64,000 nucleotides of DNA from Hyphomicrobiales bacterium (GTDB lineage Bacteria; Pseudomonadota; Alphaproteobacteria; Rhizobiales; Rhizobiaceae). The translations under genes and the position numbers were made by a program. Under the pieces are notes generated by a model that was not told the DNA's origin, made no database searches, and saw only the letters and a program-made list of their open reading frames with translations. Of this stretch, positions 1 to 5,131 are shown in pieces (position 1 is the first letter of the stretch; the number at the start of each line of letters is the position of its first letter). The DNA lies in NCBI GenBank assembly GCA_900473795.1, contig UCMT01000060.1, forward strand, positions 1-64,000, written 5' to 3'.

Positions 1-995
1 GGCATTAATGAAGGTTGGTATAAGTCATTACCTTTACTAATATTATTTCTAAGTATTCCAAGCGTGTTTGCGCGAAATATGTTTGAATTTTTTAGGTATA
101 TATCTGATCCACTGCAGCAGCCGTCTCCGTCGCTCAGTATCAGAAAATCATTATCTGCATATCCGAATGTGATGCCCTTTGACGTGCATATATCGCGAAG
201 AACCTTCAGATGGGGTCTCCTATATCCAGCCGGCAATACGTATTCGTTTCCAACAAGAGAAGAACTGTTATCCCGATACCAAGTGATAACACTCCCGTCG
301 AAGTAATTTAGCAAGGCGTCACCAAATTTCTTGTCGGCGCTGACGGGCACTTTGAGGTACTCGGCCGAGACGTGATCCACGCAACCTACAGGTAGCTGCA
401 TAATCATCTCGGCAGCGTGCTGTTCTTGCCCAGGGATCAATGGTTGCAGGCGGAGACCGACTTTAATTTGCCTGTCGCGCAACCTGCCGATGAGAGATAA
501 GAAGGTCTCGTAGCTTAACGCGCCACGGTCGACTCGGCGTCTAAGTTCTTCAGAGCAGCCGGCGAATGAGACACGGACGAGCGTGTTGGCGTTACTGAGT
601 GCGTCTATATAGATATCTTCAAAAAGGAGCTTGCCCTTAGTGCTCAGCAGATAGGGGTATCCATCGTCCTTTAGAACCTGCATGATCTTCAGTGTAGACC
701 TGATTTTTGCTTCTATAGGCATGAGGGGATCAGACATGCCACCAAATTGAATAGGTGTACGGTGCTGAAGAAACTCATCCAAAGCGGAATTAATGATTCC
801 GTTGTTCACGCGGTGTAGCCGCATTTCAAGGGTCGAAGCATCGGCCGCCGCTAGCTTTGCCTCTCGTCCGGAGCCTGTTCGAGCTCGCGCGTAGCAATAG
901 CCGCAGGAAAATTGGCACGCATTGTACGAATCGAGTCGAACCGGAGCAGAGCAGAAAGAAATCTGGCTGGATACCGATAAGAAATGTTTGTACAT
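1..995 (-). CDS. Radical SAM protein, spore-photoproduct-lyase-like class (C-terminus beyond window)
   Basis: The frame is open to the left edge, so the C-terminus is missing; about 331 codons are visible from an ATG at 995. Residues 27-34 carry CxxxCxxC (C-QFS-C-GY-C), the [4Fe-4S]/SAM signature of radical SAM enzymes. It is followed by GGMSDPLMPIE near residues 85-95 and by a LRLQPLIPG strand, both arranged as in the COG1533 'DNA repair photolyase' class. Near residue 290 a DGDGCCSGSD stretch adds two more cysteines, possibly for an extra metal site (inference). No good Shine-Dalgarno precedes 995; an in-frame ATG at 1043 would overlap the upstream gene and is an alternative start. Base composition is clearly lower in GC than the rest of the window, suggesting transfer. 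The substrate cannot be told from sequence; it lies directly behind two small membrane-protein genes and is probably co-transcribed with them. Confidence 0.72.
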   Translation of the reverse strand, partial: MYKHFLSVSSQISFCSAPVRLDSYNACQFSCGYCYARARTGSGREAKLAAADASTLEMRLHRVNNGIINSALDEFLQHRTPIQFGGMSDPLMPIEAKIRSTLKIMQVLKDDGYPYLLSTKGKLLFEDIYIDALSNANTLVRVSFAGCSEELRRRVDRGALSYETFLSLIGRLRDRQIKVGLRLQPLIPGQEQHAAEMIMQLPVGCVDHVSAEYLKVPVSADKKFGDALLNYFDGSVITWYRDNSSSLVGNEYVLPAGYRRPHLKVLRDICTSKGITFGYADNDFLILSDGDGCCSGSDIYLKNSNIFRANTLGILRNNISKGNDLYQPSLM

Positions 996-1000
996 GCGGC

Positions 1001-1300
1001 TTAAGACAAGAATTGAGTGTAAAGAAGGTTGGCCGTCGTGCATATGTTCTGGACTATTACGACTATGACCGTAAACCAAGCAAGATTTATAAGAAAGTAT
1101 ATCGCTTTCCTTGCTGTGGGAAGGGAAGAGGCGCGTCTGCCAAATATCTCCCATACCACTTCGTAGGTTGCCACGTCATCTATTTTTGAAGATTCAGGCG
1201 TCAAAATGATCCTTGGCATCTCCATCTTGTAGCTTTTTCCTGAGTGTGTGAACTTTAGCACCGATTGCTTCTCAGAAACATCTACACAAGCCATTCCCAA
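1001..1300 (-). CDS. Small unknown protein with C-terminal membrane segment
   Basis: A 99-residue frame with no recognised family. Residues 1-60 look soluble and mixed in charge; a single strongly hydrophobic segment lies near residues 68-85 (IYFLINLAWFTVIVVIV). Its start overlaps the end of the upstream 162-codon gene by 29 bases in the +1 frame, and its stop lies just before the radical SAM start at 995 (or inside that frame if 1043 is used). This suggests translational coupling. Alternatively, it and the upstream gene are one membrane protein broken by a single-base frameshift. GC is low, as in both neighbours. Confidence 0.45.
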   Translation of the reverse strand: MGMACVDVSEKQSVLKFTHSGKSYKMEMPRIILTPESSKIDDVATYEVVWEIFGRRASSLPTARKAIYFLINLAWFTVIVVIVQNICTTANLLYTQFLS

Positions 1301-1760
1301 TGGGTTCGTCTATCTCTTGAGCATACTTTTTTTCAAGAAGCCTGCCGATAAACTTGTCAACATCATAGGCCTTTGGCGATCTTGCCGCGTCCTCTATCAA
1401 GTATAGTGCTTCCCACGCGGCCCAACGGGGGGAGTGCCGAGACTGATCATAGTCGGCATAGGAGCTATAATCCTTGATGAATTTTGGGCAGAAATACTGA
1501 TAGAGCGCAAACGCCACGATAAAAAACAATGACCCCAACCATAGAAGCCACCAAGAAAATGGTAGGCTTACACTATACTCAATACAGATGTTGTCGACGC
1601 AGAGCCTGTTGGCGCGGGAAGAATTCTCGGTAAGAGTGGCAATTATCGGAGAAATTGCAAACCAAGTGCCGAAATATCTCAGATAATTCAAAGAGTAAAA
1701 GAATTTGTACCACTGCCAATGGTACTTGAGACTGTCAGCTGGCAAGAAACCCATTTGCAT
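1272..1760 (-). CDS. Unknown two-segment membrane protein
   Basis: A 162-residue frame with no recognised domain. There are two likely membrane segments: one around residues 27-45 (YLRYFGTWFAISPIIATL) and a stronger one around residues 68-88 (FSWWLLWLGSLFFIVAFAL), with two cysteines between them. The C-terminal third is soluble and charged. It is the first gene of a low-GC minus-strand trio and overlaps the 99-residue gene. The region from 1761 to the uvrB stop at 1915 holds no gene and presumably carries the promoter, though no convincing motif was identified. Confidence 0.5.
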   Translation of the reverse strand: MQMGFLPADSLKYHWQWYKFFYSLNYLRYFGTWFAISPIIATLTENSSRANRLCVDNICIEYSVSLPFSWWLLWLGSLFFIVAFALYQYFCPKFIKDYSSYADYDQSRHSPRWAAWEALYLIEDAARSPKAYDVDKFIGRLLEKKYAQEIDEPIGNGLCRCF

Positions 1761-1914
1761 CCTCTTCCTCTCGCCAATTACTGGCTCTCACAATTGCAGT
1801 GGTGCAGCTCTTGCGTTTCTGCTCCCTGTTCGGACCTTTTCGTCTGCTTTGCGATCACTCCATACCCTCGTAACTTCCGGCGCCGACCCTCGGGTCTAAA
1901 CTGGGATGACGAAC

Positions 1915-4959
<3,045 letters not shown>

Positions 4960-5131
4960 GCCGGCGAATATGGAGAGAGTCCGGCGGAAAGGGAAGGGGG
5001 CGATGAGTACAAAAAGGCAACGGATATGCCGGCTACTGCCAGTTTCTGACATAGGGCGAGGGCCACCCGGCGGCGCCTCCAGCGCGGGTGAAAAGCCGCC
5101 GCGGGCCTTGCCGGGCGCGGCGCTCTGCGGC

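Follow-up and report, generated by a model that had tools for sequence, protein, structure and literature searches.

A membrane protein and a radical SAM enzyme encoded side by side in mobile cargo positions: a candidate two-gene anti-phage module of bacteria and P2-like phages

The stretch of DNA analyzed here, called the window, comprises bases 1-64000 of contig C97 (77,448 bases) of a Hyphomicrobiales bacterium, and its position 1 is the end of that contig. At this end, beside uvrB, lies the gene pair that is the subject of this work: a gene for a membrane protein (MP) followed by one for a radical S-adenosylmethionine enzyme (rSAM). Judging from its genomic context, the MP-rSAM pair is probably an undescribed two-gene anti-phage module, of the abortive-infection or exclusion kind, that is found in bacteria and temperate P2-like phages. 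We consider this the best explanation because phage copies occupy an acquisition slot, the window copy lies in a chromosomal slot rich in defence cargo, two other copies have neighbourhoods with well-scored defence genes, the pairing is fixed, and the family is scattered widely at low frequency. No description of the pair was found in titles or abstract openings among the matches listed for the open-access literature, and the available part of the main text of the DefensePredictor paper (PMC13092281) has 0 occurrences of the word 'radical'.

Pairing and distribution of the two genes

Family rSAM genes were identified at 11 loci: the window, Mesorhizobium sp. YM1C-6-2 (G709/L011), Sneathiella sp. 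HT1-7 (G367/L012), metagenome-assembled genomes of a Zhongshania (L013) and a Candidatus Sulfotelmatobacter (L014), two further Rhizobiaceae genomes (G980 and G958), and four IMG/VR contigs (L022-L025). The bacterial hosts are presumably Alphaproteobacteria, one gammaproteobacterium and one acidobacterium, to which the P2-like phages are added. An MP gene lies immediately upstream of the rSAM gene in all 11 loci, with a spacing of -4 to +22 nt. Furthermore, the MP profiles revealed no strong MP apart from an rSAM gene, either in 388 Rhizobiaceae genomes or in the viral collection. The original prediction, which had been made from the window alone, coupled a membrane component to the radical SAM gene, and this coupling is borne out by the adjacency of the homologues, which recurs in 10 further loci, beyond what chance would give. 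At L014, just the first ~115 residues of the rSAM were seen, the frame stopping ~150 nt before the contig end, and the MPs of L024 and L025 share 89% identity with that of L023.

Strong MP-profile matches were obtained in 4 of the 388 Rhizobiaceae genomes (the own genome, G000, plus G709, G958 and G980), and the rSAM profile found the same four in a sample of 394 genomes that differed slightly from the first. Two additional MP matches, in G1031 and G862, were weak (E about 4e-4) and partial, spanning no more than model positions 18-109; we left them out as perhaps distantly related. For the viral collection, an MP alignment of the phage and Zhongshania members recovered the four contigs that the rSAM alignments had also found, and a second MP alignment returned none; such scans hinge on short conserved patterns, so that members can be missed. 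A single-protein scan of genome contigs with the window rSAM was empty, probably because its patterns are not conserved, and the alignment-based repeat gave four loci. The IMG/VR matches L005 and L026-L029 (23-30% identity) were rejected as a separate rSAM group. Weak MP-like membrane proteins with a common FCPxxxKR(Y/F) stretch are encoded at L034 (1177-1806) and L035 (1183-1842), where a wider family is possible; no rSAM open reading frame (ORF) was noticed on these 3.3-kb loci.

The family is rare. With the own genome counted, members were present in 4/394 genomes of the family sample, 2/377 of the order sample, 2/385 of the class sample and 2/398 of the phylum sample, and a genus search with the N-terminal MP piece of the window gave 1/26. 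In the order sample, nine genomes passed E<=1e-25; the two true members scored 503 and 611 bits, and the other seven matches, which were partial (92-98 bits), were dropped. By their sequence, these seven are probably PA0069-type proteins. A tblastn search with the Mesorhizobium MP (E<=0.01) gave nothing among 72,556 records of plasmids and 50,697 of phages, and the L022 pair had no DNA match in 20,395 Escherichia coli records. Protein searches of plasmids and phages with rSAMs yielded distant, partial matches or, in a search at E<=1e-15, none.

The pair as mobile cargo of chromosomes and phages

Base composition and surroundings indicate that the pair behaves as mobile cargo. Its guanine-plus-cytosine (GC) content is below that of its surroundings by at least 0.07 in seven of the ten loci measured (L024 is outside the ten): 0.34-0.35 versus 0.56-0.59 in three phage loci, 0.46-0.48 versus 0.61-0.64 in three Rhizobiaceae including the window, and 0.42 versus 0.50 in Zhongshania. 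Together with the phage slot and the variable chromosomal slot described below, this supports the horizontal acquisition that had been proposed for the window copy.

In the phage contigs L022 and L023, the pair is flanked by a tail-completion gene (phrog_26) and a baseplate-assembly gene (phrog_6142), its GC content being 0.34-0.35 versus 0.56-0.58 for the locus, and the fragments L024 and L025 have the same phage neighbours by ORF similarity. We call these phages P2-like by gene order. According to the available text of PMC3091744, the order in P2 is S, Orf30, V, the orf30 locus is one of three of presumed horizontal acquisition, and Orf30 is listed as being of unknown function; the phage pairs occupy the corresponding orf30 slot. 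The defence hotspots of P2-like phages given in the available texts of PMC9122126 (the A-Q locus) and PMC9519451 (plus the fun locus) do not include orf30, a word that is absent from both texts. More low-GC genes are present toward the tail-fibre end of L022 (13678-15398) and L023 (13186-14094), near the Z/fun position by gene order, and three of these genes gave no match when submitted to PADLOC.

Two chromosomal copies have well-scored defence neighbours. In G958, one side of the pair holds a nucleoside-deoxyribosyltransferase-like gene, a TIR effector (346.5 bits), an E1-E2 gene (703.6 bits) and a Pycsar cyclase (613.4 bits), and the other side a PDDEXK_4 gene. In Zhongshania, HsdM, HsdS and PDC-S18 (470 bits) precede the MP-rSAM pair. 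As a side observation, the nucleoside-2-deoxyribosyltransferase-like gene of G958 (L020, 8383-8859) lies between the TIR effector and the pair.

The window copy itself is located at the 3' side of uvrB, a gene present in 25 of the 26 genus members including the own genome (G019 gave just a 42-base match). We read the uvrB 3' side in all 24 other genus members (loci L063-L068 and L071-L089), defining slot cargo as ORFs of at least 165 aa with a GC content of at most 0.50, before dusA, a contig end or the end of the stretch. Fifteen of the 24 congeners contain such cargo, which is of a defence type in nine. For this assignment, 20 cargo proteins from the 15 genomes, in which not all small ORFs are included, were submitted to PADLOC, and 10 of these to Pfam. 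Eight of the 20, from six genomes, had PADLOC matches at E<=1e-10: DRT8 (G007), AbiU (G020, also Pfam AIPR), NsnA and a type II methyltransferase (G004), dCTPase (G016), a ThsA-like protein (G024), and cll and beta (G002). Pfam identified NACHT in G021 and G017, and SLFN_AlbA_2 with NB-ARC in G006, which we take to be defence-type cargo. As a control, 10 of the 46 window ORFs were drawn at random, and these gave 0 PADLOC matches. The congeners' sequences thus indicate that the uvrB 3' side is a variable cargo slot and not a core operon, and, since the slot of the congeners is rich in anti-phage cargo, the window pair sits in a slot that many of them use for that purpose.

Some side observations concern the same slot. 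Window positions 1761-1914 are within it, and it extends to dusA in the genus. Cargo without assignment includes pentapeptide and DUF900 proteins in G005 and P-loop-like proteins, judged by eye, in G012 and G015. At L086 (G009), the 5' end of dusA is accompanied by an integrase-like and an FRG-like ORF, both recognized by eye; islands with integrases at the start of dusA are described in the available text of PMC4482086. The slot is also a ready place to search for further undescribed systems in the genus.

These locations bear on another explanation, namely that the pair is lysogenic-conversion or surface-modification cargo, in which the rSAM would modify a membrane lipid or sugar and the MP would anchor it, changing phage adsorption or the host surface instead of defending the cell from within. 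A cargo slot of P2-like phages, a membrane partner and a P2 Orf30 to which no function is assigned in the source cited above all fit this idea. On the other hand, one chromosomal copy adjoins a Pycsar system and another type I restriction-modification genes, the window slot holds DRT8, dCTP deaminase and other such cargo in congeners, and no glycan or lipid gene was named among the neighbours scanned, which are part of all neighbours. We therefore regard surface modification as unlikely.

The radical SAM enzyme

The window rSAM scores 37.9 bits with Pfam PF04055 (cut-off 29.5), and its three cluster cysteines are invariant in the nine family members that could be aligned. All sequence motifs named in the original prediction are present in it: besides the CxxxCxxC motif and the late CC pair, it has GGMSDP followed by LMPIE (SDPLMPIE). 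In a FastTree analysis of the nine family rSAMs and 14 other rSAMs, two of which are identical, the nine formed one group (support 0.993). Residues invariant among them (L011 numbering) include C16, C28, C32, C35, G86-G87, D90-P91, E213, K216, C293 and C294, and an EYLK motif is present in the family. C16 is missing from eight PA0069-type and five L026-type sequences, and C293 and C294 are missing from all 14 others; the eight are called PA0069-type from their motif. The extra cysteines of the clade might bind a second metal site.

The nearest outsider (support 0.987) is a 278-aa gut-phage rSAM (L101, 2947-3783 of MT835521.1). As a separate observation, this protein has a Cys before RLD plus a late CC, which is seen by reading of the sequence, yet is not placed at the family CC in the alignment; no MP-like ORF was noticed in its surroundings.

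None of the nine curated NCBIfam models listed for the rSAM, peptide-maturase models included, reaches its cut-off, and the margins are wide: NF033668 (PA0069 family) gave 58.6 bits versus 360, NF038283 (viperin) 18.9 versus 180, and TIGR04470 (radical SAM mobile pair protein B) 23.8 versus 410. The similarity to spore photoproduct lyase that had been noted from the sequence holds for the radical SAM fold but does not extend to the lyase's own Pfam model, PF20903, which is not listed for the window rSAM up to E 1 and gives 15.4 bits versus 27 with the Sneathiella relative. In the Protein Data Bank (PDB), the best fold matches of the predicted rSAM model are spore photoproduct lyase (4fhg, E 1.3e-5, TMq 0.43), NifB, and peptide-modifying enzymes including SuiB and SkfB. 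The sole PDB sequence-profile match at E<=0.01 is 8vpo, named TigE (8.9e-4). The Sneathiella rSAM matched RTasDUF1848 of PADLOC at 0.0062; similarity to DUF1848 (E 0.15 and 0.031, below cut-off) gave no lead, and the term was not found in the open-access literature searched.

A role as an accessory to DNA repair could be imagined from the lyase fold and from the uvrB, uvrA and UvrD-type helicase genes beside the pair in the window, Mesorhizobium and Sneathiella, respectively. We set this reading aside because the uvrB flanks of congeners carry unrelated cargo. In addition, we noticed no repair gene among the neighbours of the pair at L013, at G958 or in the phages, a membrane partner would be unexpected, and the nine members have no invariant Cys between C35 and C293, where, judging from the sequence alignment, the catalytic Cys of the lyase would be expected. 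In the lyase, the catalytic Cys follows the cluster motif; C140 mutants of the lyase are among the entries of the PDB fold search. Taken together, we consider a repair function highly improbable.

The fold neighbours SuiB and SkfB and the TigE profile match would also fit a case in which a toxin or bacteriocin arises by rSAM-dependent maturation of the MP or of a small peptide that is not annotated, as in modules for ribosomally synthesized and post-translationally modified peptides, with no link to phages. However, the peptide-maturase models are among those that stay below their cut-offs, and an MP of ~240 aa with three hydrophobic segments is unlike a leader-core peptide. Such a module seems improbable to us, more so than surface modification.

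The membrane protein and the window copy

The window contains three minus-strand frames that read away from uvrB (1272-1760, 1001-1300 and 3-1154). As had been observed at the outset, they are tightly packed on one strand and differ in composition from the rest of the window: the GC content is 0.468 in 1-1760 versus 0.628 for the remainder. The first two frames had been counted as two membrane proteins; the alignments instead indicate that they are the N- and C-terminal pieces of one MP of ~240 aa. In pairwise BLASTP, the N piece aligns with residues 36-153 (E 8e-25) and the C piece with residues 166-243 (E 2e-10) of the same 247-aa Sneathiella protein, and the MP family profile (239 positions) matches the pieces consecutively, at 6-149 and then 152-237. 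The pieces are in different frames with a 29-nt overlap. Intact copies exist elsewhere: in all ten other loci the MP is a single unsplit frame, as in Sneathiella, where the 247-aa gene immediately precedes rSAM, and family members range from about 240 to 280 aa.

The first 53 residues of the 384-aa rSAM frame have no counterpart in aligned relatives. The gene most likely starts at the ATG at position 995, 5 nt past the preceding frame, a start that we chose because the relatives begin there. Thus, 331 aa are visible, compared with 402-434 aa in complete family members. Since contig C97 ends at window position 1, we attribute the truncation to the assembly. When the own genome was searched (E<=10) with a relative of full length, the only matches were the window gene, aligned as far as residue 319 of 405, and, on contig C43, a distant paralogue; the remainder of the gene is therefore not recognizable in the assembly. 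The coordinates of the features are collected in Table 1.

Table 1. Features at the left end of the window
Feature	Positions	Strand	Remarks
Radical SAM gene (rSAM)	1..995	-	Start ATG at 993-995; 3' end lost at contig edge; start aligns with relatives; Pfam Radical_SAM 2.7e-9
Extra N-terminal Cys codon (FCS)	951..953	-	Invariant in the nine family members compared
CxxxCxxC cluster motif, CQFSCGYC	894..917	-	Sequence and alignment
GGMSDP motif	726..743	-	GG and DP invariant in nine members
CC pair near C terminus	114..119	-	Invariant in nine members; not aligned with Cys in 14 other rSAMs
MP, C-terminal piece: strand region and last hydrophobic segment	1001..1300	-	
MP, N-terminal piece: hydrophobic segment 68-95 and CPxFIKxY...HSPRW...WE motif	1272..1760	-	
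uvrB, conserved core-gene flank	1915..5052	-	Outside the module; 3' side is a variable cargo slot

Decay could explain the split of the MP, as could a real two-part form of the protein or a mistake in assembly close to the contig edge. Together with the contig end inside rSAM, the split raises the question of whether the window copy has decayed or been misassembled and is functionless in its host genome, which would fit any reading of the family and whose probability is not to be added to those of the other explanations. Conservation of the family elsewhere, an rSAM frame that is open as far as it is visible, and a split lying ~1.3 kb from the contig edge, where an assembly error is possible, count against it, and we give a functionless copy a sizeable but minority chance.

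The predicted MP model (pLDDT 80.4, pTM 0.67) has helices at 29-58 and 74-94, short helices where the conserved CPxFIKxY...HSPRW...WE motif lies, strands within 147-183 and a long final helix at 207-241. Hydropathy analysis showed three main hydrophobic segments in all eight complete MPs tested, the last preceded by a mixed helix/strand stretch; in the window N piece, the first segment is below the threshold used. No Pfam model was above cut-off for the MP, and the L023 MP was unmatched in PADLOC at 0.01.

How the pair might act, and what weighs against it

If the pair is an anti-phage module, the MP could be a membrane-acting effector that is silent in uninfected cells, and the rSAM could sense infection or supply the trigger. 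On the one hand, the rSAM might modify the MP itself by peptide-type chemistry. On the other hand, it might make a small-molecule signal that is read by the soluble stretch of the MP. Activation of the MP would then stop the infected cell or block phage entry. This division of labour into effector and trigger is less likely than not and is offered as a working model. A broader notion comes nearer to an even chance but stays below it. It envisages a new type of immune module, common to defence islands and P2-like prophages, whose rSAM, from a previously unrecognised clade with an extra Cys, a CC pair and perhaps a second metal site, uses radical chemistry either to activate or to hold back its dedicated membrane effector.

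Several observations weigh against an anti-phage module. First, the number of loci is small, and a well-scored known system adjoins the pair in just two of the six chromosomal loci outside the window (G958 and L013), a count made without a matched control. HsdR was not seen on the 6.8-kb L013 contig. In G980 the neighbour is an HNH gene of low GC content that matches mREase_IV weakly (30.6 bits); in Sneathiella, the pair adjoins a UvrD-type helicase, which is a generic neighbour, and a gene resembling phage integrases; in Mesorhizobium, uvrA lies on one side and a VapBC-like pair, recognized by eye, on the other, its 94-aa gene having no PADLOC match; and no defence gene was recognized by eye at the Sulfotelmatobacter locus. 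Second, the GC contrast is absent in Sneathiella (0.471 versus 0.477) and small in G958 (0.510 versus 0.553) and L014 (0.469 versus 0.501). Third, the slots are not uniform: the orf30 slot can carry non-defence cargo, and the uvrB slot is without cargo as defined above in 6/24 congeners (G018, G010, G008, G011, G003 and G009), is cut by contig ends in 3/24 (G025, G014 and G023), and holds cargo without assignment in 6/15 genomes (G005, G012, G015, G013, G022 and G001). Finally, some observations concern the proteins themselves. The rSAM model (pLDDT 67.2) is below 50 at residues 1-51, which is the cluster-binding end, and at 289-309; the match to PADLOC pVip is weak (window 1.9e-5, Sneathiella 0.015), and the L023 rSAM has no PADLOC match at E<=0.01. 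A fold search of PDB and BFVD with the MP model gave no match at E<=0.001, and no PADLOC model matches the Sneathiella MP or either window piece up to E 1.

Accordingly, the possibility of a defence system that was raised in the original prediction stands as regards placement, and its function is read from context. Placement as defence-island or prophage cargo is seen for the window, G958, L013 and L022-L025, and is weak or not seen for G980, G367, G709 and L014.

Comparison with known systems

Among rSAMs, PA0069 and Rv2578c, which we take to be COG1533-type proteins, share with the family the radical SAM core, the CxxxCxxC motif and a DP after a glycine-rich turn. The family rSAM has 25-30% identity with the eight PA0069-type proteins over 170-208 residues, and PLSDB matches at similar identity carry the PA0069 name. 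The family differs from them in its own branch, the extra Cys, the CC pair, the EYLK motif and the low NF033668 score. Spore photoproduct lyase is the nearest solved fold, whereas its Pfam model, the membrane partner and the mobile context set the family apart.

To our knowledge, viperin is the one well-known radical SAM defence enzyme. Its prokaryotic counterpart in PADLOC, pVip, resembles the family in being a radical SAM enzyme with an antiviral role, a role that is suggested for the family by context, and in the weak match mentioned above; the family differs in its viperin-model score and in its constant membrane partner. If the proposed role is correct, a second distinct radical SAM clade bound to a membrane protein would represent new chemistry in bacterial immunity, in a compact two-gene form.

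Systems of the Pycsar/CBASS type likewise combine an enzyme gene with a neighbouring gene for a small transmembrane protein that has a soluble portion, and are likewise found in defence islands and prophages; we presume RexAB to be a comparable combination of enzyme and membrane effector. In contrast to Pycsar and CBASS, the MP-rSAM pair has no cyclase and no known effector domain, and neither of its proteins reaches the models of these systems. Finally, among the cargo loci of P2-like phages (tin/old, Z/fun and orf30), it is the orf30 position that the phage copies of the pair occupy.

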